From: a virus
DNA: 64,000 nt
IMG/VR virus record: IMGVR_UViG_3300032893_000040
Coordinates: 1-64,000 of that record
Reading direction: 5' to 3' (one strand)
Shown here piece after piece: positions 1-58,422 of this stretch (the stretch's first letter is position 1; every line of letters starts with the position of its first letter). The notes under the pieces were generated by a model. It had not been told where the DNA came from. It was given only the letters and a program-made list of their open reading frames with translations, and did not search any database. Position numbers and translations under genes: made by a program.

Positions 1-75
1 GTCTCGTTTCGACAAGTCTACTATGCGCCCAATCTCAAGCGTTACCATGTGTTTATGAAGTTCGTTCTCGTTCAT
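1..75 (-). CDS. partial hypothetical protein (N-terminus only)
   Basis: The first 25 codons of a leftward gene that runs off the left edge. The ATG overlaps the stop of the upstream zinc-binding protein gene as ATGA, the coupling used throughout this operon. The visible residues (MNENELHKHMVTLEIGRIVD...) match nothing I recognise. Confidence 0.55.
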   Translation of the reverse strand, partial: MNENELHKHMVTLEIGRIVDLSKRD

Positions 76-359
76 TTTCCCCTCTTGTCTTTGTGGAGGC
101 GGACGGAGGTGACGGTGAGTGGCATAAATTCGTATCCCGCCCCGCCGCAGTGATAGCAGTTATTCCCGCTCGGTCGCCCGTGTGATGTGCCGGGGGAATT
201 GCTGCTCGATGTCCAAATTGTCTCCTTGCCGCTTCCCCCGCAGTATTGGCAGCAAGCGTGAAGCGAGCCATCGCCCAAACGAACCACGGTGATAGGATAA
301 ACCGTGAACTTCCGGCGCGTCCTCACCCTCCCGGTAGCGGGTTTCGTGGAATGGGTCAT
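72..359 (-). CDS. small DnaJ-like zinc-finger protein
   Basis: A 95-residue protein with two CxxCGGxG motifs (CQYCGGSG near residue 37 and CYHCGGAG near 68). This is the pattern of the cysteine-rich zinc domain of DnaJ, without a J domain. It is probably a small zinc-binding protein; the partner is unknown. Its ATG overlaps the stop of the SbcC-like gene (ATGA) and its own stop overlaps the next gene in the same way, so it belongs to the leftward recombination operon. Confidence 0.6.
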   Translation of the reverse strand: MTHSTKPATGRVRTRRKFTVYPITVVRLGDGSLHACCQYCGGSGKETIWTSSSNSPGTSHGRPSGNNCYHCGGAGYEFMPLTVTSVRLHKDKRGK

Positions 360-1979: not shown

Positions 1980-2110
1980 CGGAGCCCTCCGTAAAAATTA
2001 TCATCGTCTCCCTCATCTTCGAAGCCGCCGATAAACGCAAGGAACGCGATCACAGCCACCGCGATCAGAGCTATTCCGGTAGCTATCCCTATCGCAAGCC
2101 ATGGATTCAT
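1976..2110 (-). CDS. single-helix membrane microprotein between sbcD and sbcC
   Basis: A 44-residue ORF: MNPW, then about 25 hydrophobic residues (LAIGIATGIALIAV...), then an acidic tail (EDEGDDD). The ATG overlaps the SbcD-like stop (ATGA) and its TGA overlaps the GTG start of the SbcC-like gene (GTGA). Coupling on both sides strongly suggests translation. It looks like an N-out or N-in one-pass inner-membrane protein; function unknown. Confidence 0.65.
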   Translation of the reverse strand: MNPWLAIGIATGIALIAVAVIAFLAFIGGFEDEGDDDNFYGGLR

Positions 2111-3078
2111 TTGTCCTCCAGGAATTTTATGCCTACATCCACCATCTTTTTGATATCCTTATCCTTGATACCCTCCCGCCGTGCGTACTCCTCCAGAAGC
2201 TCACGATCGGTTGCCGCCTTTATCTTGCGGCCTTCCTTCAGCTTCGGCTTAACGACTACCCGAACATTAGACCCCACAGATTCATCGGGCGGAGCATCGG
2301 TGACGAGACGATAAAAATTCCCATCATTCGATATCTGAGACGGATCGTCCACGGTTATGAATTCTGGGTGTTCGATTCTGTAGGTAGCAGGAAGGCCTGC
2401 TCCTGTGTCAATGAGCACGCGGTGATGCTTCTTATCGCCGAAGTTCATCGGATAGGGGGCACCCACGATGTAGATGTTCTTACCGATGACCTGGGGTTCA
2501 TGTATGTGGCCGCAGTACACGCGCTTGAAGTTCTTGAGGAGCTTCGGGTCCACTCCCTTGAGAATCGGGCGGTTGTAGGACGCACCGAAGACTGATTGGT
2601 GCATATAGAGCACGAAGTCTTTTGCCTTACTCGGAGCGACGTGCGTCTCGAATCCTTCCTTGCAGAACGGAATGAATACCTCCATCTCACCGCTCTTGGA
2701 CGGGCAGAGGGTGGGTTCAGTGATGACGGTCGTTATCCCGGCCACACCCTGAAGCATGTAGGCCGTGTTGAAGACCTCCCCCTCCATGGTGATGTCGTGG
2801 TTCCCGGTGAGGATGATGATTTCCTTGAGGCTGGACCGGGACGCGGCTCGTTCGATCGCCTCCTTGCACAAATTGAACGCTTCCGGTTCCACCTGCCCAC
2901 GCTTGTGGAACACGTCCCCGAGGTGGATTATGCGATCACAACTTTCCCGAGCCCCGATTTCAAGTGCCTTCCCGAACGCCCGAATTTGAAGTAGTAATCG
3001 AGAATTGACCACCTTCTCGTAGTTGGCAAAGTCCTCGTGATTCCCGAAATGGGTGTCGGAGATGATCAGTGTCTTCAT
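2107..3078 (-). CDS. SbcD/Mre11-like metallophosphoesterase nuclease
   Basis: A 323-residue calcineurin-like phosphoesterase of the SbcD/Mre11/T4 gp47 type, acting as a DNA end-processing nuclease with the SbcC-like ATPase. All metal-ligand motifs are visible in order: SDTHFGNH at the N-terminus, IIHLGDVFH, LTGNHD, YMHQSV and YCGHIHEP. The start ATG at 3078 is chosen because GAGGG lies 5 bases upstream and the protein then begins MKTLIISDTHFG, as in the family; an in-frame extension upstream is a poor match. Confidence 0.88.
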   Translation of the reverse strand: MKTLIISDTHFGNHEDFANYEKVVNSRLLLQIRAFGKALEIGARESCDRIIHLGDVFHKRGQVEPEAFNLCKEAIERAASRSSLKEIIILTGNHDITMEGEVFNTAYMLQGVAGITTVITEPTLCPSKSGEMEVFIPFCKEGFETHVAPSKAKDFVLYMHQSVFGASYNRPILKGVDPKLLKNFKRVYCGHIHEPQVIGKNIYIVGAPYPMNFGDKKHHRVLIDTGAGLPATYRIEHPEFITVDDPSQISNDGNFYRLVTDAPPDESVGSNVRVVVKPKLKEGRKIKAATDRELLEEYARREGIKDKDIKKMVDVGIKFLEDK

Positions 3079-3185
3079 TGTGCCCTCAGAAAGTATGCGG
3101 CGAGGCCGATCAGAAGCACGGCGTACCAGAAGAGCGGATTGCACGCGGCGAACTTGACGTGCCAGCGCAGGTCGTTGAGTGTCAT
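3075..3185 (-). CDS. single-helix membrane microprotein upstream of sbcD
   Basis: A 36-residue ORF with a central hydrophobic helix (PLFWYAVLLIGLAAYFL) and a positively charged N-terminal part. Its ATG overlaps the stop of the winged-helix gene (ATGA) and its TGA overlaps the SbcD-like start (ATGA). Same architecture as the microprotein at 1976-2110, without sequence similarity. Function unknown. Confidence 0.6.
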   Translation of the reverse strand: MTLNDLRWHVKFAACNPLFWYAVLLIGLAAYFLRAQ

Positions 3186-3949
3186 TTCTTTATCCTTTCA
3201 TACCACATACGTTGTGCGAGCTTCAACTTCCTCACATCCACCTTCGACTCGTCTATTCCTGCCAGCTTCCAATGCTTCTTCTCCACCTTCGGATGACACA
3301 TGAAGAACTCCGGGTTGAGTATCCCGTTCTTTACAAATAGAATCATACGCGGAATGTCGTCTCGGAGACGTAACCTGTCGAACGCATGGAACGAAGCATG
3401 GATGTCTGCATTTTCATCCTCTGGGACTTCTTCCACAAGAAACTGTCGAACGAAAGTGTTATAACGGTCCACCGCTTTTGACTTATTGGCAAGGACGTTC
3501 GGTGGGGGATACGGAGCGTGAAAAATCTTTGAACACCATCCGGCTGGCATTGCGAAGAAACAGGAAAGAACGTATGCATGTATGTCAAGATTGAATTCCT
3601 CACAAAATAGAGCGATCTTCTCGAAGCTCGAACGGCTGTTGAGGAATGAATAGGCCAGTTCCTTGGGGCTGGATAGACGCTCGTTGACATACTTGACGTA
3701 AATTGCACGGACCATCTCGGCACGCGCACTCGCGCTGGATGGCGCACCCACCACCATATACTTACTTGGTAGCTGTGCGCCATCCGGTCCATATTGTGCT
3801 TCAATCTTAACATAGCCCTTCTCCACAAGGTCCACGATTTGCGCTCTCGCGCTTGCCTGGGAAAGCCCCGTTTCCTCTGCTATCTGCTTCAATGAAAGCT
3901 GTATCCATTTTCCACCGCCTCTGATACGAATGAGATCATAACAGTCCAT
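3182..3949 (-). CDS. winged-helix DNA-binding protein
   Basis: A 255-residue protein. Residues about 15-60 read as a winged helix-turn-helix (LSLKQIAEETGLSQASARAQ, then a VEKGYVKIE wing). The rest is alpha-rich and unrecognised. It could be a transcription regulator or a replication-initiation type protein. The start at 3949 sits 9 bases after GGGAGG; longer in-frame starts (3958, 4012) would run into the conserved promoter-like motif at 3961-4000. It heads the leftward recombination operon. Confidence 0.65.
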   Translation of the reverse strand: MDCYDLIRIRGGGKWIQLSLKQIAEETGLSQASARAQIVDLVEKGYVKIEAQYGPDGAQLPSKYMVVGAPSSASARAEMVRAIYVKYVNERLSSPKELAYSFLNSRSSFEKIALFCEEFNLDIHAYVLSCFFAMPAGWCSKIFHAPYPPPNVLANKSKAVDRYNTFVRQFLVEEVPEDENADIHASFHAFDRLRLRDDIPRMILFVKNGILNPEFFMCHPKVEKKHWKLAGIDESKVDVRKLKLAQRMWYERIKK

Positions 3950-3960: not shown

Positions 3961-4000
3961 TCCCATAGGAGAAACGCCGGGACCCCAAACTCGCTTTCAC
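3961..4000 (-). promoter_or_regulatory. conserved phage promoter-like motif, copy 1 (leftward)
   Basis: On the minus strand: GTGAAAGCGA, GTTTGGGGTC, CCGGCGTTTC, TCCTATGGGA, directly upstream of the ribosome binding site of the winged-helix gene. It shares the pattern GTGAAAGCGA-TTTGGGTC-CGTTT-CTAT-GGAGGA with copies at 4036 and 6686. Position and strand suggest a phage-specific promoter driving the leftward operon. Confidence 0.6.
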
Positions 4001-4013
4001 GGCGTGAGCCATT

Positions 4014-4035
4014 CCAGGTACACGTCAAGGGATAC
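4014..4035. repeat. short inverted repeat in divergent control region
   Basis: CAGGTA and TACCTG form a 6-base stem around a 12-base loop, between the leftward and rightward promoter-like motifs. Possibly an operator; no direct evidence. Confidence 0.3.
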
Positions 4036-4076
4036 CTGAAAGCGAATCAAGGGTCCGTACGTTTTTCCAGTGGGGG
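4036..4076 (+). promoter_or_regulatory. conserved phage promoter-like motif, copy 2 (rightward)
   Basis: CTGAAAGCGAATCAAGGGTC followed by CGTACGTTTTTCCAGTGGGG. The core TGAAAGCGAAT, GGGTC and TACGTTTTT match copy 3 at 6686. It points toward the replication operon, back to back with copy 1, giving a divergent control region. Confidence 0.55.
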
Positions 4077-4164
4077 ACGGCGGTCATGGCACCGATAACG
4101 GGCGAGGTGTTGTATGATGGTGCTACGAACGAAGCACATGCCGACAGGCTTCAGGGACCATTCC

Positions 4165-4191
4165 TTGCCGACCTGCCTCCTCCGCTATAAA
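4165..4191 (+). promoter_or_regulatory. candidate host sigma70-type promoter
   Basis: TTGCCG and TATAAA separated by 15 bases, followed within 20 bases by ACGCGCACACGCGT (a 5-base hairpin). The position, upstream of the rightward replication genes, fits an early promoter read by host polymerase. The spacer is short, so support is modest. Confidence 0.35.
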
Positions 4192-4269
4192 AGACACGCG
4201 CACACGCGTACGAACTCTACGGACGATGGGAGTTGGTAGATGACAGCTAGCAGTCATAAGGGAGTCCCT

Positions 4270-4470
4270 ATGGAAGAGAAAAACAAGTTTTTCTCTTCTG
4301 GTGGCCAAGAGCAGGCCACCCCTTTGATTGCTTGCCAGAAATGCCAGCACTTCCGCGCTCACCACACCCATTTCACTGAAGGGATTTGCTTCCGGACGGG
4401 CAGGTACGTGTGGACTACCTGCCTCCCCAGCCCGGATTGGTGCCCACTCAAGTTTACAGGAGACCATTAA
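4270..4470 (+). CDS. small cysteine-rich (zinc-ribbon-like) protein
   Basis: A 66-residue protein with CQKCQHF, then GICFRTGR, TTCL and WCPLKF: four to five cysteines spaced like a small zinc-binding fold. The start at 4270 has AAGGGAG 5 bases upstream; an in-frame ATG at 4240 also has a GGGAG. The TAA overlaps the DNA polymerase ATG (TAATG), so it is the coupled leader gene of the replication operon. Confidence 0.6.
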   Translation: MEEKNKFFSSGGQEQATPLIACQKCQHFRAHHTHFTEGICFRTGRYVWTTCLPSPDWCPLKFTGDH

Positions 4471-6689
4471 TGCCACACAAGTTCACCAAGCGTCGTGAGG
4501 TGCTCGTCCCGGAGACGACCTTCAACGACAAGCTGAAGGAGATATTCAATGCGTGCGGTCTATGGATACTTGAATGCCAGTTGCCTATTAACGGCGGCCA
4601 CGGAAGGGGTATTACGGTATGCCTCTTCGACGAGATGGAACTCAACGCCGCAGGGAAGAAGGGACACAAAGGGTGGGTTGGCAAGAGCTTTGAAAGTGAT
4701 GGGATACGCTACGTTGTATTCCCTAACGTTAACGGCGGGATTTCTGATGTTGGCGGCTTTGAGCGTGCCATTGGTGTTCTTAACTCTGTGGAAACGCCAA
4801 AGGGATCCATCCGCATCATCACCACCCCGAAAGAACTCGCGGAAGCAATAGAATATCTCAGGACACTGGCGTACGTCGTGTGCGACTTCGAGACAACCAC
4901 GCTCGACCCCTATCTCCCAGGGGCACGGGTACTCACGCTGGCCGCTGGTAACAGGGACCGCGTGTACGTGATGCCGATGTCGCACAAGGACAGCCCATGG
5001 CGCGGGAACGTGACTGCCCAACGTGACTTCATCCGCGCCGTGTATTTTTCCAGACACATGGTGGCCCACAATGCCAAGTTCGAACTCCGGTGGTTCCTGG
5101 CCCTCGGGCAGAGTCTGCGCTACATAGACTTCGACCCGATGGTCGTGCACCACCTTCTGGACGAGAATTCGGCGCATGATCTTGAAACGCTTGCCGCCCA
5201 ATACACGAATTTCGCCGGATACTCCCATGAGTTTTCCTCTTCCCTTACTGATAAGCATAATTACGAGTCTGCTCCTTTCGATCTGCTTTGTCGCTACAAC
5301 GGTATGGATGTGCTGGTTACTGATTACGTTACCGTTGCGCTTCGTAACGAGCTTGAAAGGGCAGAGAACGACAAAATCCGGCAGTGTTGGCAGGACATCA
5401 ATCAACCTCTCATCAGTCTCCTTGCAGAAATGGAACACGCGGGTTTTGTACTCGACGAAGACAAGCTCGTGGAACTCACCGCGTGGTACGAAGGCAGGCA
5501 GGCATACTACGAAGGGGAGGTCAAGAAATACCGGCAACTCCAACAGTTCTTCCGCGATCGACCGAACTTCAATTTTGGAAGCACTGTCCAGTTACAGTCC
5601 CTCCTTTATGGGGAGCTGGGCTTTAAGCAGATGAGGGGCCACATGACGGAGCCATCCACCAAGTTCCCGAAGGGCCAGCCCTCCACCAACAAGGAAGCCA
5701 TCAAGGCGATGAAGGCGACCGGGAAGCACATTCCCGTGCTGGATGGACTCGCCATGCGTACCAAATGCAACTCGATGCTCAAGGCGTTCCTATACGTCTT
5801 CCAGGGTAAGCTGGATAATTCGACGGACGGGAAGCTTCACACCAACTTCAACCAGCACATAGTGGAAACCTTCCGGCTCTCGTCGTCCGGTCCGAACATG
5901 ATGAATCTCCCACGGTCGGAGGACCTCGCCAATCTCGGGCTGGAATTTCCCAAGCGCGTGTTCGTCTCCCGGTTCGACGGCGGGGAACTCGTTCAGGCGG
6001 ACCTTTCCCAGATCGAACTCCGGGTGGCCGGGATGTATTCCAAGGACCCCGTGTTCGTCAACGCGTTCGCAGAGGGGCGCGATCTCCACGGGGAGATGGC
6101 CGAATTCGTGTACGGCAAGGGCTACACGAAGGAACAACGCTACAAGGCGAAGCGCACCAATTTCTCCGCCGTCTTCGACATCGGTGCGGCGGCACTCGCC
6201 CCCCAGATCGAAGCCACGGTGGACGAGGCCCAGGAACTGATCGACTCCTTCAAGGAACTCCACCACGTGCTGTTCGAATGGTTCAATGAACTTTGGGCAC
6301 AGGCGCAGTTTGATGGTTACGTAGAGAACTTCCTCGGCCGTCGCCGCCACATCCGTATGGAACTTTCACGGGCCTTCAAACAGCATGAGATTGATGCGGT
6401 CCGCCGCTCCACCTGGAACTTTCCAATTCAGTCCTCTGCCGCCGATATCATGCTGACCGGGATGCTGGCTCTCCGCGAGGCCATGCGTAAGCACCAGATG
6501 AAGAGCGTGATTCTGGGGATGGTCCATGATTCAATCATCGTGGACGCTTACCCCGGCGAATCGGAACGCATGATGTCCGGCATCAAGTCCATCTTTGAGA
6601 ACCTGCCGTATGATTGGCTCACCATACCCGTTCGCATTGATGTTGCGCATGGTCCTAACCTTCATGAGCTTGAGGAATGGAACCCGTGA
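4470..6689 (+). CDS. family A DNA polymerase with 3'-5' exonuclease (candidate DpoZ)
   Basis: A 739-residue replicative polymerase. The 3'-5' exonuclease motifs are present: DFETT (D139), NAKFE (about 201) and YNGMD (about 276). Polymerase motif A is DLSQIELR (D511). Motif B is RYKAKRTNFSAVF (from R557), keeping R, K and F but with Phe at the position usually Tyr. Motif C is VHDS (D687), where the family norm is HDE. There is no 5'-3' exonuclease domain. The start follows GGAG and overlaps the upstream stop as TAATG; a longer in-frame extension has no merit. Because a PurZ-type gene lies in the same operon, it may be a polymerase adapted to 2-aminoadenine (DpoZ-like); that link is inference. 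Confidence 0.9.
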   Translation: MPHKFTKRREVLVPETTFNDKLKEIFNACGLWILECQLPINGGHGRGITVCLFDEMELNAAGKKGHKGWVGKSFESDGIRYVVFPNVNGGISDVGGFERAIGVLNSVETPKGSIRIITTPKELAEAIEYLRTLAYVVCDFETTTLDPYLPGARVLTLAAGNRDRVYVMPMSHKDSPWRGNVTAQRDFIRAVYFSRHMVAHNAKFELRWFLALGQSLRYIDFDPMVVHHLLDENSAHDLETLAAQYTNFAGYSHEFSSSLTDKHNYESAPFDLLCRYNGMDVLVTDYVTVALRNELERAENDKIRQCWQDINQPLISLLAEMEHAGFVLDEDKLVELTAWYEGRQAYYEGEVKKYRQLQQFFRDRPNFNFGSTVQLQSLLYGELGFKQMRGHMTEPSTKFPKGQPSTNKEAIKAMKATGKHIPVLDGLAMRTKCNSMLKAFLYVFQGKLDNSTDGKLHTNFNQHIVETFRLSSSGPNMMNLPRSEDLANLGLEFPKRVFVSRFDGGELVQADLSQIELRVAGMYSKDPVFVNAFAEGRDLHGEMAEFVYGKGYTKEQRYKAKRTNFSAVFDIGAAALAPQIEATVDEAQELIDSFKELHHVLFEWFNELWAQAQFDGYVENFLGRRRHIRMELSRAFKQHEIDAVRRSTWNFPIQSSAADIMLTGMLALREAMRKHQMKSVILGMVHDSIIVDAYPGESERMMSGIKSIFENLPYDWLTIPVRIDVAHGPNLHELEEWNP

Positions 6690-6728
6690 AAGCGAATTTG
6701 GGTCGCGTACGTTTTTTCTATAGGAGGA
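6686..6728 (+). promoter_or_regulatory. conserved phage promoter-like motif, copy 3
   Basis: GTGAAAGCGAATTTGGGTCG then CGTACGTTTTTTCTATAGGA and GGA, lying between the polymerase stop and the next ATG. The CTATAGGAGGA end resembles the initiation region of T7-type promoters and doubles as the ribosome binding site. Alternatively GAAA...CGTTT with an 18-base gap resembles ECF-sigma promoters, and a sigma-like gene lies at 15623. Confidence 0.6.
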
Positions 6729-6732: not shown

Positions 6733-7050
6733 ATGACAGAAGAACCACAGAAAGCGCAGGACCCACGGCCACAGTTTGGCCAGGTAGCCCATCTCAAGTG
6801 CAACCTTTGCGGGGAGCGGTCCACCGCTCTGGACCCGCTACAGGCCAACGCATGGATTAAAGCCCACCTCGAAGCCATGCACCCCGGCAAGGCGGCGGAA
6901 CTTGCGGCCATCGACCGCAAGGTAGGCCAGCTCAACGCGTCCCGCGACCGCCTCATTCAGAAATTCAGCCAGAAACTGAACAGCCTTTTCACATCCGAGA
7001 TGGGGCGGATTGTTACACCTCCCCCATCACACATAATCAAACCTTCATAA
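6733..7050 (+). CDS. small C2H2-type zinc-finger protein with C-terminal helix
   Basis: A 105-residue protein. CNLC near residue 24 and HLEAMH near 46 give a CxxC...HxxxxH pair. A charged, probably helical segment follows (AAIDRKVGQLNASRDRLIQKF). A good GGAGG precedes the ATG, and promoter-like copy 3 lies immediately upstream. Likely a DNA- or protein-binding accessory of the replication module; not recognised. Confidence 0.6.
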   Translation: MTEEPQKAQDPRPQFGQVAHLKCNLCGERSTALDPLQANAWIKAHLEAMHPGKAAELAAIDRKVGQLNASRDRLIQKFSQKLNSLFTSEMGRIVTPPPSHIIKPS

Positions 7051-8347: not shown

Positions 8348-9220
8348 ATGCCGAAGGCACCAGGCCTCGATATGGCCCGCTTGATAGCGGGTTACAATGA
8401 GGCAAAAGCCAAACAGGCAACGGCGGCTGGATTCATCCGGCTTCAGGACGGTGAGAACAGGCTTCGTCTCACCACGTTCACGAATGGGGAAACCGGGAAG
8501 GGGGAATTGTACGTTCAGTACACCTCCCATTTTCTGGTGGACACGTCCGTTGCCTGCCTCAAGATGTTCGGGGAGCCGAATTGCCCCGTCTGCGACTACA
8601 TCGCAGAGCTGAAGAAGCGTGATCTGAGTGCCGTCGCCAAAAAGATGGCACCCAAACAGCGGTTCTATTTCAACGTCCTCGTCAAGGGCGAGATGAAAGT
8701 CCTTGAAGTCGGGCGGCAGATATGGGACCAGATCATGGCTTTCTTCGCTGACCCGGAGTACGGCAACATCGCCGACACCGAGTCCGGGTGCGACATCAAG
8801 ATCACGCGGTCCGGTTCGGGCCTGACCACCGAATACTCGGTGCTCTGTGCCCGGAACGCGTCCAAAGTGGTCCTCCCCGAGGAGCCGAAGGACCTCAACA
8901 AGCTCGTGGTGCGTCTCTCGCCCGAGGCCATGGAAGAGGTGCTCTACTCCAAGTACGAACGGCTGGATGATGCGGTTCCGTTCTCGGTCAATGACGCGGA
9001 AGAGGCGCACGCGAGGGGTGCTTCCGCCGCTCATGCATCCGACGCATCAGAAGGGGACGATTTCGCCCCTCCCCCGGCGCAGACCGGACCCCAGCCCGAG
9101 AAGAAGCCGATGACCAAGGCGGAGCAGGCAAGCTGGGCGGATGACACGTTCGGCAAGGGCAAGAAGCCGACACCTGCCAAACCCGCCAAGCCGACACCCG
9201 CGAAGCCGGGAAAGCGGTAA
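8348..9220 (+). CDS. gp32-like single-stranded DNA-binding protein
   Basis: A 290-residue protein with the layout of T4 gp32-type SSBs. An N-terminal ENRLRLTTF strand leads to CLKMFGEPNCPVCDY, a metal-binding loop with CxxC, and then aromatic strands (RFYFNVLV, WDQIMAFF). The C-terminal 90 residues are disordered and Pro/Lys rich, where most SSBs carry an acidic protein-interaction tail; an acidic patch (EGDDFAPPPA) precedes this basic end. It coats ssDNA at the fork. AAGGAG precedes the ATG. Confidence 0.8.
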   Translation: MPKAPGLDMARLIAGYNEAKAKQATAAGFIRLQDGENRLRLTTFTNGETGKGELYVQYTSHFLVDTSVACLKMFGEPNCPVCDYIAELKKRDLSAVAKKMAPKQRFYFNVLVKGEMKVLEVGRQIWDQIMAFFADPEYGNIADTESGCDIKITRSGSGLTTEYSVLCARNASKVVLPEEPKDLNKLVVRLSPEAMEEVLYSKYERLDDAVPFSVNDAEEAHARGASAAHASDASEGDDFAPPPAQTGPQPEKKPMTKAEQASWADDTFGKGKKPTPAKPAKPTPAKPGKR

Positions 9221-9307: not shown

Positions 9308-9511
9308 ATGGAACACTACACATTTCGAGCGAGTCTCCGGTTGTCCCGGAACTACAACTCGATCGAGGTCTCCGCGGAGTATGGTCGGGACCTGAAGCCG
9401 AAGGAGACTACGGAGCGGATGATCGAAGACGTAACGAAGACCGTGTGGGAGAAGCTGGAACGCGAGGCCGCACGCGCTGATGAAGTCCTCAATTCCACCA
9501 AGAAAGGATGA
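9308..9511 (+). CDS. small hypothetical protein coupled to purZ
   Basis: A 67-residue protein with an N-terminal beta hairpin-like part (YTFRASLRLSRNYNSIEVSA) and a C-terminal charged helix. AGGAGGAAGGT precedes the ATG. Its stop overlaps a possible purZ start. Unknown family. Confidence 0.6.
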   Translation: MEHYTFRASLRLSRNYNSIEVSAEYGRDLKPKETTERMIEDVTKTVWEKLEREAARADEVLNSTKKG

Positions 9512-9513
9512 CC

Positions 9514-10644
9514 ATGCAACCAGGCAAGATCAATATGGTGATGGGCGGTCAGTGGGGGAGCGAAGCCAAGGGAAAGCTTGCCGGATATCTCGCCCTCCGG
9601 AAGAGTCCTTACGCGTCCGTCTGCAACTTCTTGACCAACGCCGGCCACTGGTTCAGGTCGAAATCGATGGGTGACTTCCTCGTTCAACAGCTTCCGATGG
9701 CGGCGGTCAATCCGCACGTGAAGCTCTTGATTTCGGCTGGGTCCGGCATCACGATCAAGACCCTGGAGAAGGAGATCGAACAGTTCGAGTCGAGAGGCAT
9801 CCGCATTACCAATCGGCTCACGATCGACCCGCACGCATTCATTATCGAGGAGAAGCACAAGCAGGAGGAAGCGGGGGGCGGACTCGGGCGAATCTCCAGC
9901 ACGCTCAAGGGATGCGGGGCGGCACTCGCGGCCAAGGTGGCACGCAAGGAGGATGTCGTCTTGGTGAAAGACGTTCCCGCCATGCACAGGTACGGGACCG
10001 TTGCGCGAGTTGCCCCCCTGCTTCACGGCTGGCTCTCTCTCGGATACACCATCATGGGGGAGCTGGCTCAGGGGTTCGACCTGTCGCTCAATCACGGGCA
10101 TCTGTACCCGCACGTCACCTCCCGTGACATCACGCCGTCCTCCTTCCTGGCGGACATCGGAGTACCCCCCCGGTACGCAGGGACCGTGTACGCGGCTCTC
10201 CGGACGTTCCCGATTCGCGTGGGACACGTGTACGACGACAAGGGCAACATCGTGGGTCACTCCGGCCCCCATTACAGCGATCAGACTGAACTCACATGGG
10301 ACGAGCTTTCCGCTGAGAACGGGCGGCACATACTCGAGCACACGACTGTGACCGGAAAGGTGCGGCGCGTGTTTTCGTTCTCGATGCTTCAACTCATGAA
10401 GTTCAGTGAGTACTGTTCCCCGAACGTGATCTGTCTGCAGTTCTGCAACTATTTCCGGAACGTGTATCCGGGCATCGGGTACGCGGACCTCATGAAAACG
10501 GAGTGCGGCACGCTCATTCGCAACATCGAACGCGCCACGAAAATTCCAGTGCTATATCTCGGGACCGGGGCCGACGATCTTGAGATGATCGATCTCACGT
10601 CGCAGGAACATCTCGACGCGGCGGCGGCAAGGAGTGTTGACTGA
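9514..10644 (+). CDS. purZ: PurZ-type adenylosuccinate synthetase homologue (2-aminoadenine pathway)
   Basis: A 376-residue PurA-fold enzyme. The P-loop reads GGQWGSEAKGK: PurA has D (QWGDEGKGK) as catalytic base, here Ser16, as in PurZ of vibriophage PhiVC8 as I recall it. NAGH (H45) keeps the general acid. TTVTGKVRR (277-285) is the aspartate-binding loop. The KLD element that reads guanine of GTP in PurA is replaced by CLQFCNY, fitting use of (d)ATP. Stretches such as AQGF-LSLN, TSRD-TP, FLAD-G and ELTW also match PurZ. Expected reaction: dGMP + Asp + ATP to N6-succino-2-amino-dAMP, the first step to dZTP. The start at 9514 has AAAGGA 5 bases upstream; 9508 is an alternative. Confidence 0.9.
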   Translation: MQPGKINMVMGGQWGSEAKGKLAGYLALRKSPYASVCNFLTNAGHWFRSKSMGDFLVQQLPMAAVNPHVKLLISAGSGITIKTLEKEIEQFESRGIRITNRLTIDPHAFIIEEKHKQEEAGGGLGRISSTLKGCGAALAAKVARKEDVVLVKDVPAMHRYGTVARVAPLLHGWLSLGYTIMGELAQGFDLSLNHGHLYPHVTSRDITPSSFLADIGVPPRYAGTVYAALRTFPIRVGHVYDDKGNIVGHSGPHYSDQTELTWDELSAENGRHILEHTTVTGKVRRVFSFSMLQLMKFSEYCSPNVICLQFCNYFRNVYPGIGYADLMKTECGTLIRNIERATKIPVLYLGTGADDLEMIDLTSQEHLDAAAARSVD

Positions 10645-11697: not shown

Positions 11698-12190
11698 TAA
11701 TACAACTACCACCTGGAAAGGGAAGCGAAATTTCGGCAAGACAGTGTGCGTGGACTTCGACGGGGTGATCGCCGGGATGCAGAAGGGATGGCGCGGTCCT
11801 GATAGTTTCGGGCCAATCATACCGGGGGCGTGCTTATCATTACAACGGCTTGCTGGCGATGGGTGGTACATCATTATTTTCACTACCAGACTTGTCACCC
11901 GTCAGTTGGTCGAATGGCTCAAAGGTAATTGCGTCCCATTTAATGATATCAACGGTCGGTGCTTCGTCGAGAAGGGCGTACTCTATGTGCGTCTCCAGCG
12001 TTACAATCGGTCCACCGTTGATTATCGCCCCGCCCGTCCCCGGTGGTACTGGAGACACAACCCGGAATGGGCCAGTATCAAGCCGATCGCGTCCGTCTAT
12101 CTGGACGACCATGGTTGGCCCATCAAGGGTGACTTCACGCCGAACGTGTGGAATGCGGTAGTAAGGGACCTGATAGATGGAAATTACTGA
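11633..12190 (+). CDS. HAD-superfamily phosphatase / nucleotidase-like protein
   Basis: A 185-residue protein. VCVDFDGVIAG (residues about 38-48) carries the DxD nucleophile pair. IIIFTTRL is motif II, and SVYLDDHGW supplies the acidic C-terminal motif. The family includes 5'-deoxynucleotidases and small phage HAD phosphatases. The chosen ATG overlaps the dUTPase by 65 bases in another frame; no better in-frame start lies before the catalytic core. Being between dUTPase and helicase, it may remove a competing (d)NMP; untested. Confidence 0.65.
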   Translation: MSVKCPILRVGPADSAQPEGFNNTTTTWKGKRNFGKTVCVDFDGVIAGMQKGWRGPDSFGPIIPGACLSLQRLAGDGWYIIIFTTRLVTRQLVEWLKGNCVPFNDINGRCFVEKGVLYVRLQRYNRSTVDYRPARPRWYWRHNPEWASIKPIASVYLDDHGWPIKGDFTPNVWNAVVRDLIDGNY

Positions 12191-13496
12191 ACTTACGCTG
12201 GGGATACCTGACGACTTCCAGCGTACACTTATTGCACTCATGTGTGCGGACCCGGATTGGTTGGAGGTGAACCGCCCGTTCGTTAAGGCGGAATTCTTCG
12301 ACCGGATGGAGCACAGAGCCGTGGTGGGGTGCATACTCGAGTTCTTCGATAAGCACGGGACTCCACCCACCTTTGACGTGCTGGATGACGTGATAAGGGA
12401 GAGGCTCCCCAATCCGGACCTCCTCGGCGCGTCTCTCCGGGAGATTTCCTGCGTGCAGGACATTGAAATCACTCTTTCCAAGGTGCGTCATGCCACAGAT
12501 AAGCTACAAGTCTTCGCTGAAACTCAACATCTCCGTGAATGCATCAGAGCCGGAGCAATTGCCATCGACGGAGGAGATATTGCATCTGCTCGCCGTGCAC
12601 TGGCTTCAGCCGAAGACGTTGCGCGGATCAACCACTCTGCGGTTCTCTCGATATTCGATGAAACTGGGATGGACGAGAGGTCCGATAAGGAGTCAGAAGT
12701 CGAGACGATGGACAAGATACCCACTCTTCATCGGGGTCTTGATAAAAAGCTTCGCGGAGGTTTTGCTCGTAAGGAGCTTCACATTCTTATGGCACCTCCT
12801 TATCGTGGCAAGTCGGCTGGCCTGGTTGATCTGGGGGGGAACGCGCTCTTTTGTGGGGCCAAGGTTCTCCACGTTACTTGTGAAATGTCGGCTAAGAAAA
12901 CCGCCAGCCGATACGACCTCAAAATCTCCGGCATGACGCGTGATGAGATAGAGGCTAACCCGACCGAGTTCAAAGCCCGGATGCTCCATTTCCAGAGCAC
13001 CTTCAAGGGAAATCTGAAGGTCATCGAGTTCCCCTCCCGGTCGGCGACGGTGGCCGATATCGAAGCCCAGATGAAGTTCCTGCTCCGTAGGCAGAATTTT
13101 TGGCCCGACGTGCTCGTGGTGGACTATCTGGACGAACTCAAGCGTCCGAACCGCGATAACGAGGCTTACGCACTCGGGCAAGTAACCTCCGAACTCCGTG
13201 CCCTCAACCAGAAGAGCAACACGGTCGGCCTGTCCGCTACCCAGACCACGAGACAGGGGTTCTCCAAGCAACGCCTCGACATGGACGACATCGGCGACTC
13301 CTGGGAAAAGGTGAAGATCGCCGACAGTCTCATAGGGATGTGTCAAACCAAGGATGAGGAAGATGACAACACCATGCGCCTGTACATGCTCAAGAACAGG
13401 GACAACCAGCGGAATTCATCCCCGGTCTTGATGCGGACCATATTTGAACGGATGACGTTCAAGGACATCACATTCGAGGAAGGGGCGGCAAAATGA
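12177..13496 (+). CDS. DnaB-like replicative helicase
   Basis: A 439-residue hexameric helicase with an N-terminal DnaB-type helical domain (FQRTLIALMCADPDWL) and a RecA-type core. The Walker A position reads APPYRGKS (about 206-213), lacking the first canonical Gly. VLHVTCEMS follows, then Walker B VLVVDYLDEL and a sensor region (GLSATQTTRQG). It unwinds DNA ahead of the polymerase and works with the primase at 14824. AAGGGA lies 8 bases upstream of the ATG. Confidence 0.85.
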   Translation: MEITELTLGIPDDFQRTLIALMCADPDWLEVNRPFVKAEFFDRMEHRAVVGCILEFFDKHGTPPTFDVLDDVIRERLPNPDLLGASLREISCVQDIEITLSKVRHATDKLQVFAETQHLRECIRAGAIAIDGGDIASARRALASAEDVARINHSAVLSIFDETGMDERSDKESEVETMDKIPTLHRGLDKKLRGGFARKELHILMAPPYRGKSAGLVDLGGNALFCGAKVLHVTCEMSAKKTASRYDLKISGMTRDEIEANPTEFKARMLHFQSTFKGNLKVIEFPSRSATVADIEAQMKFLLRRQNFWPDVLVVDYLDELKRPNRDNEAYALGQVTSELRALNQKSNTVGLSATQTTRQGFSKQRLDMDDIGDSWEKVKIADSLIGMCQTKDEEDDNTMRLYMLKNRDNQRNSSPVLMRTIFERMTFKDITFEEGAAK

Positions 13497-14827
13497 GACT
13501 GATACCAGCAGGACCGATACTTTCGGTAACGGGGCAGGATTATCAATCCATCTCGCTCGCATGGACCGACATCTCTCAACCAGGGATCCCGGTGATAGGT
13601 TACCAGATTTATCGCGGTCTAGGCTCGAGCCCGTCGTCGTTCAGCCTGATCGCTACCGTGGGGAGACAACTCACTTATGTAGATCAGGGCCTTTCCCCAT
13701 CAACCACTTACAGCTATTACGTAGTCGGGATTTACCAGCCGGGACTTCTCACGTCCCCATCCAACATCGTCACAGACACCACGGCGGCGGCTATTCCTTG
13801 GCTTTACGCGCTCCGGTCCGGGGCGATGGACATTTACAACGTGGCTGATCCAGCACACATGTCGCTCAATAACAGCGACACAGCATATTCCCAGGGAAGT
13901 ACAGCCAACCAGCAACTTGCCGATTCGGATTACCTGTATCTGGCAAACGACGGGAAGGTCGGCATCTATAGGTGGTCGGCCAATCCAACGGCACCCACCA
14001 ATCCGTTTCTGTATAGCCATGCGAGCCAGATAATAGTGAGGCGCGGCCTCACCAACTACAACAATCTCATGCTGTTGTGGGTTGGGTCTCCATTTGCTGA
14101 CATCGGCATCTATACCTACAACATCTCGAATCCGGCGAGTCCAACACAGCTTTATCATTCAACCGGGGACAGTGAGCTTGCGGCCGGACAGAAAGGCCCC
14201 GGTCATTCGGCATTCGCTTTTGACCCTGTTGGTGGGAAGCTCTGGTTCTGTACGGCGTGGACCGGATATAAGTACGAGATTTCGTATTTCCCCATAGCCT
14301 CTGACGGGACCATCGGGGCAATGAACACCATGTACCAGACCATCTGGGGCGGATCGAACGAAGCTTCGATGGCGTTCATCTACAACGGTAGGTTCTGGTA
14401 CAACCAGAACCAGACATGGCTCAAGTCGTATTACATGAACGGCGGCGGTGAAGCCATGACTCCGTGGACTTGGCCCGGAGCCGCGGGTGATTTCCATTAT
14501 CAACCTCCGAGAATCGTTGGGGGGCACTATGCAATATTTGGTGCTGATGGGGCCAACGCCGCTCACGGTGCGCTTATTGTGGTCGATCTCAACACAATGA
14601 CGGTGGTTGCCAACATCGGAACCCTGAATACGCAGTGCACGTCGTTCACGATAGCGGGTCCTTACCTGTTTTACGTGACAGGGACCACCCTCTATGCGTA
14701 CAACATCTCAAATCCGACCTCACCTTCACTGGTGAGTAGCCTCGGCAGTCTACCGGCCTCTGCCATCGGCTTGACAGGGTACGCGTCCACAGGCTGGGAT
14801 GGGAATAACGGACTCTGCACGTCATGA
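13493..14827 (+). CDS. fibronectin type III / beta-propeller-like protein in replication operon
   Basis: A 444-residue protein. Residues about 5-90 form an Fn3-like domain (LAWTDIS, YQIYRG, TYSYYVVGI). The rest shows repeated blocks around DIYNVADP, YTYNISNPASP and YAYNISNPTSP, spaced like blades of an LVIVD-type beta-propeller. No signal peptide is visible. The ATG overlaps the helicase stop (ATGA) and its TGA overlaps the primase ATG (ATGA), so it is translationally locked between the two. Such domains usually belong to cell-surface or virion adhesins. Confidence 0.75.
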   Translation: MRLIPAGPILSVTGQDYQSISLAWTDISQPGIPVIGYQIYRGLGSSPSSFSLIATVGRQLTYVDQGLSPSTTYSYYVVGIYQPGLLTSPSNIVTDTTAAAIPWLYALRSGAMDIYNVADPAHMSLNNSDTAYSQGSTANQQLADSDYLYLANDGKVGIYRWSANPTAPTNPFLYSHASQIIVRRGLTNYNNLMLLWVGSPFADIGIYTYNISNPASPTQLYHSTGDSELAAGQKGPGHSAFAFDPVGGKLWFCTAWTGYKYEISYFPIASDGTIGAMNTMYQTIWGGSNEASMAFIYNGRFWYNQNQTWLKSYYMNGGGEAMTPWTWPGAAGDFHYQPPRIVGGHYAIFGADGANAAHGALIVVDLNTMTVVANIGTLNTQCTSFTIAGPYLFYVTGTTLYAYNISNPTSPSLVSSLGSLPASAIGLTGYASTGWDGNNGLCTS

Positions 14828-15756
14828 TAAACGTCAATCAAATCGCCGCCGTATTCGGAACGATCTGGGATTCACACGGTCCCGAGTACAAAGTCACGTG
14901 CCCCAAGTGTAGCACGAAGGCACTCTGGATTAACGTGAGGAAGCACGCTTATCACTGCTTCTCCTGCGGGGACGGGGGGGCACTCCAGCTTTTGGTTCCT
15001 GGATGGGCACCGAGTATCACGGCTCAATGGGTCGGGGCGAGTGAGAAGGAGACATTTGAAATTCCGGATGTCCTTCCACTTAGCTACATGAGGATAAGGT
15101 CTCGATGCGACTATCGGCCGGGGTGGGACTACATCGAGCATCGTGGAGTTCAGGCCGGGGCGGTGGAATGGGGTGTCGTGCCCGGAGATTCGGCTGTGTA
15201 CTTCCCGATGAGGGAGCAGGGTAGAATAGTTTATTGGCAATCCCGGTCTCACTCCTGGGTGGAGAAGCGCAAAACCCAGAACCCGAAGGGTATTGCTAAA
15301 AGTGAAGTCGTGTATCGGATTGATGAATTGGGGGGCGGGGATGTTTTTCACGCGATCTGTATCATCGTGGAGGGAATCTTCGATGCGCTCCGGGTGGGCG
15401 GCGTGGCCACCCTCGGCAAGACCTGCAGTCCGGCACAGGCTTATAAGATTCTGAACCGGAGGCCTTACGTAATCTTCGTGGTGTACGACGATGATGCGTA
15501 TGAGGCTTCGAAGGTCACGGCGAAGATGTTCTCGGAGATGGACCGGAGCATACCTGCGATTCCTGTTTACATCACCGGGGGTGACCCTGCTGATCTCGGA
15601 TGGGATTACGTGAGGTTGGCTATCAGAGCGGCCCTTTGGGGCCATGAATCAATTTGCTCACTATGCGGCGTAAGCGCGAAATCGATCGAGACACGGTTGC
15701 TGGAGATGTCCCCAAAGACTGCGCTATCATGCTCCCGGTTATCTCCACCGCGTTAG
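14824..15756 (+). CDS. DnaG-type primase with zinc finger and TOPRIM core
   Basis: A 310-residue primase. An N-terminal zinc finger CPKC...HAYHCFSC (about 25-50) recognises the template. The TOPRIM motifs are IIVEGIFDALRV (catalytic Glu) and VVYDDDAYE (Asp cluster). It lacks a C-terminal helicase, consistent with a separate DnaB-like protein. The last 45 codons overlap the sigma-like gene on the other strand, converging tail to tail. Confidence 0.85.
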   Translation: MINVNQIAAVFGTIWDSHGPEYKVTCPKCSTKALWINVRKHAYHCFSCGDGGALQLLVPGWAPSITAQWVGASEKETFEIPDVLPLSYMRIRSRCDYRPGWDYIEHRGVQAGAVEWGVVPGDSAVYFPMREQGRIVYWQSRSHSWVEKRKTQNPKGIAKSEVVYRIDELGGGDVFHAICIIVEGIFDALRVGGVATLGKTCSPAQAYKILNRRPYVIFVVYDDDAYEASKVTAKMFSEMDRSIPAIPVYITGGDPADLGWDYVRLAIRAALWGHESICSLCGVSAKSIETRLLEMSPKTALSCSRLSPPR

Positions 15757-16258
15757 CATGCCCCGCCGCTTGGGCACTCGTGCCCCGGAGTTTGGTATCG
15801 TAGAACACGCGTTCGGCACGGGTGACCAGCGGACGGGGGGGTGCGAGCAGGAGTTCCAGAACGCGCCTGTCGATGTCAAATTCCAGGGCCATGGAGATCA
15901 TGTCGGCGTACTCCTTCAGCACGAGCACGTCGAACGGTGAAGGTTCCCGCGACTCGAGTATCTCCTCCCCCCACTCGTCCTTGAGACCGTCATCTTCAAG
16001 ACCGAACGTGCGCGAATAGGCGCGGTAGAAGTCGCAGAGTAGGTTGTGTATCGAGGTACGAAACAGTGCGGTGAGTTCCGCATCCGGGATGCTGGTGCGC
16101 CGGAGTAGCTCAACCAGCTTGATGGCGCACTCCTGCCTGAGGTCCTCCGCGATGCGGTAACGGAAGCTGGAGGAGAACCGTGCGCACATGTGCTCGACGT
16201 ACGGACCTACCTCCTGCCAGATACGATCAAACCGCTTATCAACGTGTTGGCTTCGCAT
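15623..16258 (-). CDS. sigma-70-family (ECF-like) RNA polymerase sigma factor
   Basis: A 211-residue protein with a region 2-like stretch (EDLRQECAIKLVELL...LFRTSIHNLLCDFYR) and a C-terminal helix-turn-helix (MIAQSLGTSPATVSRSISRL) like region 4. It could redirect host RNA polymerase to phage promoters. It is the last gene of the leftward accessory operon and overlaps the primase 3' end by 134 bases. Its start overlaps the preceding small gene by 20 bases. Confidence 0.65.
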   Translation of the reverse strand: MRSQHVDKRFDRIWQEVGPYVEHMCARFSSSFRYRIAEDLRQECAIKLVELLRRTSIPDAELTALFRTSIHNLLCDFYRAYSRTFGLEDDGLKDEWGEEILESREPSPFDVLVLKEYADMISMALEFDIDRRVLELLLAPPRPLVTRAERVFYDTKLRGTSAQAAGHANAVEITGSMIAQSLGTSPATVSRSISRLRRIVSKLIHGPKGPL

Positions 16259-17342: not shown

Positions 17343-17361
17343 CTTGTTCCTCGATATAGAG

Positions 17362-17392
17362 GGGTGGCTGGGCAAGTCGCACCCAGCCACCC
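17362..17392 (-). terminator. 11-bp perfect hairpin between two leftward genes
   Basis: GGGTGGCTGGG and CCCAGCCACCC pair perfectly around a 9-base loop, just downstream of the stop at 17399 and upstream of the start at 17342. No U-tract follows, so it may be a processing or attenuating hairpin rather than a full intrinsic terminator. Confidence 0.55.
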
Positions 17393-17398
17393 TTCCGG

Positions 17399-18102: not shown

Positions 18103-18374
18103 CTTCGCCTCGCGATTGCCGCTCGAATGGTCCCAGCGGTGAAGCCCATCTGTTTCATGGTGTCGGTGATCTCGTCATTGAGAGACTGGATGGCGAGATT
18201 CCGGGACACCTGACTCCGGGAAGAATAACTCCGGACTGTGGTATCGATCTTGCACTCCACTCCACGAAATCCGAAGACGAGAGTGTACCAGACACCTGTG
18301 ATGGGTGGGGTAGCACTCCAATCTGGGTCCGTGTGTTCATTGAGCTGAATGACCTTGAGCGTCGTCCTCTTCAT
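18099..18374 (-). CDS. small hypothetical protein
   Basis: A 91-residue protein: beta-rich N-terminal half (GVWYTLVFGFRGVECKID) and a C-terminal helix ending in AAIARRR. ATGA coupling to the upstream gene. Unknown. Confidence 0.55.
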   Translation of the reverse strand: MKRTTLKVIQLNEHTDPDWSATPPITGVWYTLVFGFRGVECKIDTTVRSYSSRSQVSRNLAIQSLNDEITDTMKQMGFTAGTIRAAIARRR

Positions 18375-18712
18375 AGGGTCTCCTTGGTGACGAGCTTCTC
18401 AGGCCAGTATCCGTACCACCCTCTGTCTCCTCCTGCAAGCTGGACTCCAAAGTGACAGCCAGACGGAGAAAGTCGCTCCATCGCACTCCAGAGGTCTTCG
18501 TGAAACCACCAGAACATCTGATCGGTCTTCCAGAGAACGTCATCCGGTGGAAGCCCAAGGAAATGGCCGTCCTGAACGAATTCGGACGGGCACGATTTGA
18601 GAAGCTCCCCGCACAGCGTCGGGTTCTCTTCATCGATGAGACGCATGAACTTCGGGACGATCTCCTCTATTCTCTCGGAATACTGGCAGATTCTTTGGCC
18701 CTGATAAGTCAT
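18371..18712 (-). CDS. small hypothetical protein, Trp-rich C-terminus
   Basis: A 113-residue protein with several tryptophans (MFWWFHEDLW, GWYGYWPEK) and an acidic helical N-terminus. Coupled by ATGA at its start. No family recognised. Confidence 0.55.
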   Translation of the reverse strand: MTYQGQRICQYSERIEEIVPKFMRLIDEENPTLCGELLKSCPSEFVQDGHFLGLPPDDVLWKTDQMFWWFHEDLWSAMERLSPSGCHFGVQLAGGDRGWYGYWPEKLVTKETL

Positions 18713-55072: not shown

Positions 55073-55306
55073 ATGGTAGATATCAAAAGGTACAACAGGC
55101 TGAAAGATCAGGGCCTCGCAAAGGTCATTTCACAGGGTCCCGGCCTGTACAGCGTGCGGTTCTCCAGGTTCGATGTTGAGAACGGGCAGGAATTGGAACC
55201 GGAAATCCAGCCCCTCTCCATGGAAGAGCTTCTCACGGTGAGGGCGACTCTGGAATCCCAGGTTCAGGCCATCAATGAGATCATCGCTCAGATGGTGACT
55301 GCATGA
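55073..55306 (+). CDS. small hypothetical protein
   Basis: A 77-residue protein with AGGAG before ATG. Beta-rich start (GPGLYSVRFSRFD) and a C-terminal helix (LLTVRATLESQVQAINEI). Its stop overlaps the glycosyltransferase start. Confidence 0.55.
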   Translation: MVDIKRYNRLKDQGLAKVISQGPGLYSVRFSRFDVENGQELEPEIQPLSMEELLTVRATLESQVQAINEIIAQMVTA

Positions 55307-58300: not shown

Positions 58301-58422
58301 CGATCGCCGATGCGAAGCTCCTCCTGGGCGACAAGTTCGATCAGACCAACATCTACAAGTGGATGTGGGACAACGGGTGGAACAAATCGTTGCCAGAGGC
58401 ATGGCGGGAGTTCCTCAAATGA
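55303..58422 (+). CDS. multidomain glycosyltransferase-methyltransferase (GT2, MT, GT17, GT2, partial GT9-like)
   Basis: A 1039-residue protein with five modules in order. Residues 1-230: GT2 (SIVIPTYSNAKGF, VLNDDTVI). About 245-430: class I methyltransferase (KTVIEVGSWHGRSS, DMIFIDADHNYENV). About 440-690: GT17-type (YDCFVFFNELDLLEMRL, FVVVEGVKTHSNQPK, IISDVDEIPR). About 700-960: second GT2 (MSVVNQTRKPDRLVIFDDGE, WRLDDDNV). About 965-1039: Rossmann start like GT9 (VIVLDCGLGDHWAFKSVWPE), completed by the next gene. Could decorate virion proteins or host surface glycans. ATGA coupled. Confidence 0.8.
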   Translation: MISIVIPTYSNAKGFQSCVESILENSTLDDYEIVVVANGAPQETRETIFALEHRARVQSKWFDEPIGMTRATNEGIKLAKGDFIVVLNDDTVILGPEWLKLLQEPFADATVGVTGPQKEHDPNSNHDFLIFFCVMIRRDVFARIGILDEVFNPGFGEDTDFCIRAERAGFKVVTVPSEEGHFLADHPNSSDLPEWKKQKMWVGQFPIYHDGEQTFSKLKDTDSILERNRKILHDRYASPYNIDYAVRIDGWMAEEELRWLAKKATEHKTVIEVGSWHGRSSRAIADNLPANGKLYCVDTWGGSSGEPDAHGSAKQKEGDNAFIYFNKHMSEHLLTGKVRAIRMTSTNGAELLKDLAIQADMIFIDADHNYENVKADIESYLPLLAPGGLICGHDYSEEQLVWVGVKQAVNERFPNVSRAPKTSIWYVDPKKLAPVRKREVYDCFVFFNELDLLEMRLTELDGVVDHFVVVEGVKTHSNQPKLLYFKENAERFARWKDRIIHVVVDDYPEFTNAWDNERHQRDSILKGLVGCQDDDIIIISDVDEIPRAHMVETYNPKTGIGFVEQDLYYYFLDCQCTHKWNWLRILPWKLMKGMTPCQVRYFPATENIIPNGGWHFSFMGGVDRIIDKVKAYAHQEYNTPDFLDPKRLLEKVRAGEDIFGRDEHYKIVPVDDSFPGYVRSHKAELAGKGYIAGLTKRTVTAEISTKDRYFTTLPMAVMSVVNQTRKPDRLVIFDDGEQKDLREVSPYKALLQMCQDAGIAWEVQATPRMGQVANHQHMLDTAQTDFVWRLDDDNVAEPTCLAKLLESMEDPKVGAVGGLVFHPGAVQPLPRFVTAKMEDIFTGLNMQWFQWNGGPREAEHLYSTFLYRVEAGKAAGGYQKNLSPVGHREETIFTHSIQRAGYKLLVNPGAKTWHLRESSGGIRSYKEGGHWDHDELIFREKLSEWRIAVRAKKVIVLDCGLGDHWAFKSVWPEIKERYKDGDVILAVCFPELFPGENLISIADAKLLLGDKFDQTNIYKWMWDNGWNKSLPEAWREFLK

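Follow-up and report, generated by a model that had tools for sequence, protein, structure and literature searches.

The window analysed here, 64,000 of the 65,636 bases of the IMG/VR phage record IMGVR_UViG_3300032893_000040, carries three copies (A, B and C) of a promoter-like element in its replication region, together with a gene for a sigma-like protein (Table 1). Copies A and B are divergent. Downstream of copy B come a 34-codon open reading frame (ORF), a small ORF and the gene for a family A DNA polymerase. Copy C opens with the TGA stop codon of this polymerase gene and is followed by a run of genes for RusA, single-strand DNA binding protein (SSB), a PurZ-like enzyme, dUTPase, DnaB and primase. 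The end of the primase-like gene overlaps the sigma-like gene, which lies on the opposite strand.

Written 5' to 3', the copies read TGAAAGCGAGTTTGGGGTCCCGGCGTTTCTCCTATGGGAGG (A, minus strand), TGAAAGCGAATCAAGGGTCCGTACGTTTTTCCAGTGGGGGA (B) and TGAAAGCGAATTTGGGTCGCGTACGTTTTTTCTATAGGAGG (C). An ungapped alignment spans 41 positions; all three copies agree at 24 of these, and any two agree at 29-31. Invariant positions form their longest blocks at 1-9 (TGAAAGCGA) and 24-28 (CGTTT), further invariant positions of the spacer are 11, 15, 16 and 20, and TGAAAG-N17-CGTT is present in 3/3 copies at one fixed spacing. A preliminary description of this DNA had reported three copies, each just upstream of a gene that it could drive. 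We found the copies within 1-2 nt of the positions given there, and start codons just downstream of each of them (ATG 3949(-) for A, ATG 4086(+) for B and ATG 6733(+) for C).

To search the rest of the genome, as the same description had suggested, each copy was scored with a weight matrix made from the other two. Copies A, B and C reached 36.8, 32.9 and 37.1 bits, respectively, and the best site other than a copy in the 65,636-bp record scored 11.8 (A held out), 12.7 (B) and 11.2 (C) bits. This gap establishes that the element occurs three times in the record, no further site being near in score. Two loose IUPAC patterns were not significant on their own (3 sites found vs 2.14 expected with three mismatches; 3 vs 1.89 with two mismatches for the other pattern). 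Across the intergenic DNA of the record (8.7 kb in all), no second repeated class that could represent a late promoter stood out.

Table 1. Predicted promoter copies, the sigma-like gene and neighbouring genes, in coordinates of the window.
Feature	Coordinates	Strand	Basis
Putative promoter copy A	3999-3959	minus	TGAAAG 3999-3994, N17, CGTT 3976-3973; read from sequence
Putative promoter copy B	4037-4077	plus, divergent from A	TGAAAG 4037-4042, N17, CGTT 4060-4063; read from sequence
Putative promoter copy C	6687-6727	plus	TGAAAG 6687-6692, N17, CGTT 6710-6713; read from sequence
Putative ECF-type sigma factor, candidate for recognising copies A-C	15623-16258	minus	TIGR02937 and predicted fold
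SbcC-like subunit, same strand behind copy A	356-1828	minus	phrog_77 E 9e-48
SbcD-like nuclease subunit, same strand behind copy A	2107-3144	minus	phrog_100 E 1e-48
Winged-helix protein, replication-initiation (O-like), behind copy A	3182-3949	minus	phrog_678 E 5e-5; wHTH Pfam matches
34-codon ORF behind copy B	4086-4190	plus	read from sequence
Family A DNA polymerase with 3'-5' exonuclease	4470-6689	plus	PF00476 E 3e-69, PF01612 E 2e-15
First gene behind copy C	6733-7050	plus	no match in family scans
Single-strand DNA binding protein, run behind copy C	8348-9220	plus	phrog_1192 E 3e-29
PurZ-like succino-amino-deoxyadenylate synthase	9508-10644	plus	NF038379 228.8 bits
DnaB-type helicase	12177-13496	plus	PF03796 E 8e-13
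Primase-like zinc-ribbon protein	14824-15756	plus	PF01807 E 4e-4, below cut-off

We read the element as a -35 box TGAAAG, a 17-bp spacer, a -10 box CGTT and a start nine bases on, which we consider probable as part of the sigma-promoter interpretation as a whole. All three copies have the -35 box with an AA core, the fixed spacer and the CGTN-like -10 box of extracytoplasmic function (ECF)-type promoters, and this spacing is enriched in relatives. The promoter-like character first suggested by the GAAA and CGTTT boxes is thereby strengthened, as these boxes lie in the two longest invariant blocks and their spacing recurs in distant relatives (see below). In the sigmaH promoter, for which a 17-bp spacer is the optimum, the two T of the -10 GTT occupy -10 and -9 (PMC6411747; this and the other cited papers are drawn on here through excerpts). 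With the T's of CGTT placed likewise, transcription would start on a purine in every copy, at G3964 on the minus strand (A), G4072 (B) and A6722 (C). The predicted leaders of 15 nt (A), 14 nt (B) and 11 nt (C) would contain little beyond the Shine-Dalgarno sequence, and the T7-like 3' end of the copies would be explained because the start point and the Shine-Dalgarno sequence stand there.

The candidate reader of these sites is the sigma-like protein. It matches TIGR02937 (sigma70-ECF) over residues 11-201 with an E-value of 8e-8, and PF04542 (region 2) below the cut-off of that family. Its AlphaFold model (predicted local distance difference test, pLDDT, 78; predicted template modelling score, pTM, 0.45) comprises two domains, residues 2-88 and about 107-206, which match region 2 and region 4 structures, as expected for an ECF sigma factor, a protein of about 200 residues. 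Length and helix order fit an ECF sigma without region 3 or 1.1, and residues 90-110 fall under a pLDDT of 50. The N-terminal domain fits sigmaE region 2 with -10 DNA (4lup; Z 8.4, 3.0 Å, 82 residues) and the C-terminal domain fits the -35-binding domain of SigD (3vfz; Z 7.4, 2.0 Å, 62 residues). Furthermore, among the best 50 of the 144 Foldseek matches in the PDB (E up to 10), 49 were sigma factors or transcription complexes by title, the exception being TTYH2. Matches in the viral library included many phage sigma factors (best E 1.3e-3).

Homologues of this protein occur in loci selected by PurZ (see below), the closest being those of L030/L031 (E 1e-8), followed by L052, L035 and L028/L029. 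Using the L030 homologue as query added L037, L058, L060, L063 and L076, and an iterated profile added sigma-like proteins of L040 and L084. This profile gave 31 matches; L066 and L046, which look like drift into other proteins, were omitted from the family alignment, L032 and L041 were omitted too, and others, among them L074, L075, L077, L080, L081, L099 and L102, were set aside without closer study. The aligned proteins share 14-24% identity with the window protein, and stretches of region 2 (EDxxQE-like) and region 4 (ATVSR-like) are recognisable. Nine of the ten relatives' sigmas that were scanned match TIGR02937 at E up to 0.01, with L028 (59.9 bits) alone above the cut-off, and the L037 protein matches another sigma-E model. 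The window gene is a neighbour of primase; its counterparts in the relatives are found on either strand, at distances of up to about 3 kb past primase or DnaB. A sigma-like gene family is thus established in the lineage. Searched directly, the window protein had no relatives in viral contigs and no match among phage records, and the sigmas of two relatives likewise had no phage-record match. Profile, homologues, predicted fold and the co-occurring motif class lend indirect support to the earlier suggestion that this protein may recognise the motif. In the PurZ-bearing Bacillus phage vB_BpsS-140 (L024), a gene at 2588-3376 is annotated as sigma-70 family and lies upstream of purA, with two genes between.

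No near DNA match to window positions 1-25000 was found in the phage collection, and the window polymerase had no relatives in viral contigs by direct search. Searches with capsid and terminase identified a 61-kb relative and seven further contigs with common structural genes. A polymerase search of these eight records, run without a positive control, was empty, and the motif pattern occurred in the phage's own record only (1/9). A PurZ scan confirmed 497 loci, of which the best 80 were kept; nine of the 80 were removed as duplicates by name and listing, not each checked, before spacings were counted. After removal of duplicates, 16 of these loci encode a relative of the window polymerase (22-32% identity) and mostly relatives of DnaB, primase, SSB or dUTPase as well. 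The window order of polymerase, PurZ, dUTPase, DnaB and primase is also that of L030, L058, L060 and L076.

In these 16 loci, the window excluded, TGAAM-N18-CGTY occurs at 33 sites, compared with 6-22 sites (mean 11.5) at 16 other gaps from 10 to 26 and with 9 sites for the reversed pattern at gap 18. The 55 other PurZ loci showed no peak (22 sites at gap 18, 16-41 at other gaps). Across 19 whole records, which include the window's own (4 sites, one within a gene) and the near-duplicates L028/L029, TGAAA-N18-CGTY was found at 49 sites vs 15 for the reversed pattern, and N15 gave 10 vs 10; 14/19 records have at least one site. A matrix built from 23 relatives' sites and no window copy ranked the window copies 1-3 in the record (C 31.5, A 19.5 and B 16.5 bits; next 10.8). 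Among the 19 loci in which the polymerase stop codon was located, strict sites within 40 nt of it were observed in 7/19 (the window, L028, L033, L038, L058, L060 and L076), not all of them independent as L028/L033 and L060/L076 are close pairs; the expectation by mononucleotide shuffling is 0.021. Relaxing the letters and allowing gaps of 16-19 adds L035, L059 and L063 (10/19). In six loci (the window, L028, L033, L035, L038 and L059), the polymerase stop codon itself supplies the TGA of the -35 box. Back-to-back pairs like A/B were found in L028 (2826-/2837+) and L052 (1644-/1676+), and in L035 near 3143 with a gap of 17 and one weaker box.

A motif-blind repeat search outside long ORFs of 15 loci revealed that some carry repeated elements of their own: TGAAACCGAATGTTTGTCTCGTTCGTCATA and four more in L052, one of them with TGGAAC; TGAAARCGARTTWAA...CGTTATR in four copies in L058; and TGAACGY...CGTTC in three copies in L038, all with the spacing of the window, and an element with a spacing one base shorter in L035. 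No such element was found by this search in L032, L034 and L084, among others. A targeted search also recovered the two-box class, in other letters, in related PurZ phages. The class is therefore established in some related phages, and it was found in AT-rich as well as GC-rich phage sequence. A three-copy element of L030 (core GAAAGYCGGTCMYCCCCCCGGGATCYGYC, at 1603(-), 1845(+) and 8630(+), the third copy read by eye) has a run of C; its copies flank a rep-like gene and follow the polymerase. It is related to the window element and stands at comparable places, but with a spacing 3 bp longer it was kept apart from the class. In L040, arrays of CCTAAGGT-like units at 4656-4720 and 18353-18450 each precede a near-identical 30-bp stretch (28/30) with a Shine-Dalgarno-like sequence on its minus strand.

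Viral contigs were also searched for the letters themselves. A strict pattern had no match. The more permissive TGAAAGCGARTTT-N10-CGTT matched ten stretches, five of them in known PurZ/sigma phages (records of L060, L076 and L061). The other five had no match to replication or sigma queries; of these, two fall within short stop-free frames and three within frames of 416-900 codons. A gapped pattern had a single match, within an ORF of an unrelated contig, which we took as chance.

We propose that the three copies are bipartite promoters for the host RNA polymerase core combined with the phage-encoded ECF-type sigma, an interpretation that sequence comparison and the structural model make probable. 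Several observations weigh against it. Regarding the protein, its TIGR02937 score is below the curated cut-off (32.0 vs 42.9 bits), a phmmer search of PDB sequences had no match, single Foldseek E-values in the PDB are weak (best 2.5e-3, none under 0.001), the whole-chain root-mean-square deviation is about 20 Å with the arrangement of the domains not modelled, and structure-alignment Z values under about 13 can reflect a common arrangement in helical folds. Its direct matches to L052, L035 and L028 are also weak (E 9e-4 to 4e-3). Regarding the sites, the matrix scan of the whole record found no TGAAAG-type site ahead of the sigma gene or the late genes of the window. Convincing gap-18 sites are missing from L030, L032, L040 and L084 despite their sigma-like genes; conversely, L033, L038 and L059 have sites and no sigma found within their short locus sequence. 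The preliminary description had named absence of the motif from equivalent sites in relatives as evidence against it: this applies only in part, as the class is present at the polymerase stop in the strict and relaxed counts given above, which include the window, and absent there in 9/19 loci even when relaxed. Regarding the sample, relatives were selected by PurZ, the 16-locus group was set by replication-gene matches when most of its sites were already known (L033 joined it at that stage), and the relatives' matrix was built from 23 sites picked by pattern and eye. Finally, the sigma motif computed for phage 7-11 in 2015 (PMC4331800) differs from the one mapped later (PMC8948821), indicating that computed promoters can be wrong.

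Phage sigma factors with promoters of their own are known from phage 7-11 and phiEco32. The 7-11 sigma, SaPh711_gp47, uses the host core at late promoters GTAAtg-16-aCTA, and the positions of these promoters are similar to those of a related phage while the sequences differ (PMC8948821). The window resembles 7-11 in having a phage-encoded sigma and bipartite promoters ahead of phage genes, both putative in our case, and the predicted promoters keep their places while their letters change in some of the window relatives too. In contrast, the sequence is another one, and the 7-11 promoters drive late genes whereas those of the window precede replication genes. The gp36-type sigma of phiEco32 and SU10, annotated as ECF, serves middle and late genes from a single element, tAATGTAtA, without a -35 box, which has been explained by its missing region 4 (PMC8948821, PMC4281155, PMC7881722). 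Unlike this system, the window has both boxes, and its sigma keeps a region-4-like C-terminal domain according to the model. Hence the remark that no known phage promoter class matches stands for the sequence, as far as these excerpts go, and fails for the kind, bipartite phage-sigma promoters being known. The lineage and the sequence class look new.

We weighed four other explanations, each conceivable, and found that they account for less of these data. The copies could be operators through which a phage DNA-binding protein, e.g. the winged-helix protein behind copy A, controls host sigma-70 promoters: two of them face each other beside the winged-helix gene, and the conserved spacer letters exceed the needs of a pure sigma site. 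However, no dyad was seen by eye, the two boxes recur at one fixed spacing with differing spacer letters, the start codon stands at promoter distance, and sigma-70-like matches around the motif are at chance level (3 found vs 2.4 expected), as are those of a sigma-70 promoter scan around the sigma gene. We consider operators unlikely. Among bacterial ECF promoters, that of sigmaW is TGAAAC-N16-CGTA. Like it and the promoters of sigmaH (-35 GGAACA, -10 GTT, 17 bp; PMC6411747) and EcfG (GGAAC-N16-CGTT; PMC7083833), the window element has two boxes, a rigid spacer and a GTT/CGTT -10 box; it differs in its TGAAA-N18-CGTY pattern, in the extended -35 block TGAAAGCGA and in being phage-borne. Hijacking of a host ECF sigma could account for the -10 CGTT, which equals that of alpha-proteobacterial EcfG promoters (PMC7083833). 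Yet the -35 box is TGAAA here and GGAAC for EcfG, and the class occurs in AT-rich and GC-rich phages of presumably different hosts, several of which carry a sigma-like gene of their own, making a host sigma improbable.

The copies also end in a Shine-Dalgarno sequence just before a start codon, and in this they are like the start-associated sequences (SAS) of Cluster K mycobacteriophages, 13-bp sequences repeated just ahead of phage start codons, about half of which have an imperfect inverted repeat upstream (PMC3203893). An RNA or translation element of this type nevertheless fits poorly, as the longest conserved blocks of the window lie at promoter positions, the longest of all about 28-36 nt upstream of the Shine-Dalgarno sequence. 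Folding is no better than that of shuffles (z -0.51, 1.33 and 0.15), no Rfam match reached the gathering score, and a tRNA search of the sequence found nothing. By eye, no GGGATAGGAGCCC-like 13 bp stands at the ribosome site, and the 3' ends CTATGGGAGGATG, CAGTGGGGGACGG and CTATAGGAGGATA match the SAS consensus (PMC3203893) only around the Shine-Dalgarno sequence. We therefore regard a translation element as very improbable.

The end of the T7 promoter resembles CTATAGGAGGA, and the preliminary description had accordingly likened the end of the motif to a T7-type initiation site. A promoter for a single-subunit RNA polymerase of the T7 type is hardly credible, since no RNA polymerase was found among the proteins scanned (a part of the ORFs), PF00940 was not found in the record by a search without positive control, and the conserved blocks lie at ECF -35/-10 positions. 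The ending is better read as a start point and a Shine-Dalgarno sequence.

For promoters read by the phage sigma, we infer sigma binding at the sites, transcription starting there, the extents of the transcripts and their timing as follows. The sigma would be made early from another promoter and would then switch on the replication genes. Copy A would drive the rep-like and SbcD/SbcC genes leftward, copy B the polymerase gene, and copy C, overlapping the polymerase stop codon, the run of SSB, PurZ, dUTPase, DnaB and primase genes. In the middle of the replication run lies a gene for a 444-residue protein (13493-14827), which has a 32% homologue in G001, a relative otherwise sharing mainly structural-region genes.

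The PurZ-like protein scores 228.8 bits with NF038379, compared with 128.8 bits with TIGR00184 (purA) and 184.7 bits with PRK04293. PurZ is therefore its best NCBIfam model, 100 bits above TIGR00184, yet the score is below the NF038379 cut-off of 300. In the alignment, the Ser of its GSEAKGK loop takes the position of the Asp of PurA, a difference that we take to be the rule separating PurA from PurZ. A PurZ homologue is also a feature of the Z-genome phages phiVC8 and S-2L (PMC8342488; record JF712866), and the window polymerase is distantly related to the p29 polymerase of phiVC8 (E 2e-7). Unlike phiVC8, the window record yielded no tblastn relative (best E 0.2) of p26 or of p25, a phosphohydrolase that we take to be DatZ. 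Because of the PurZ-like enzyme, the phage genome probably carries 2-aminoadenine (Z).

The record has further features apart from the promoters. Window positions 1-118 are repeated exactly at record positions 64117-64234, outside the window, followed by divergent sequence, and a further 40-bp match links 320-359 and 64364-64403; these repeats may mean that the genome is circular or permuted and was closed on sequence from a strain variant. Near the record end (L003 5595-5623, about 65594 of the record, outside the window) lies a near-consensus sigma-70 promoter, TTGACA-N17-TATACT by eye, a candidate early promoter. A hairpin at 17356-17398 with an 11-bp GC-rich stem (GGGTGGCTGGG...CCCAGCCACCC) lies between two minus-strand ORFs. 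A 1039-residue protein (55303-58422) has GT2, methyltransferase and GT17 domains, and a stretch repeated at 62751 and 63447 (24/28 identical) lies near the starts of small minus-strand genes.

More tentatively, ECF-type promoters may have replaced host sigma-70 promoters at the replication genes because the DNA carries 2-aminoadenine, an idea that we regard as possible but doubtful. Sigma-70 flips out and reads the A at -11 of the -10 box, and in Z-DNA that base would be Z. Sigma-A flips out A-11. For sigmaH the flipped bases are T-10, T-9 and G-5, of which T-9 corresponds to A-11 (PMC6411747). The CGTTT box of the window contains no A; given such a box and the master base T-9 of sigmaH, Z-DNA could be read by a phage ECF sigma though not by sigma-70. 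Reading of TGAAA in the major groove should be unaffected by the amino group, which lies in the minor groove. Z-compatible transcription would then rest on a phage sigma whose master box is A-free, acting as one module with PurZ and the polymerase. Against this idea, the association of sigma and motif with PurZ is circular because the relatives were selected by PurZ, in relatives CGTT is often followed directly by an A, and T-10/T-9 pair with template-strand A, which would be Z. Transcription of adenine-replaced phage DNA by host RNA polymerase was not addressed in the excerpts of the open-licence literature searched.

For a group of uncultivated phages, our analysis provides both a promoter class and a sigma family, in a compact layout that places the polymerase stop codon inside the -35 box. 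The proposed combination of a phage sigma and A-free -10 promoters in PurZ phages makes the transcription of such DNA by host RNA polymerase directly testable in vitro.

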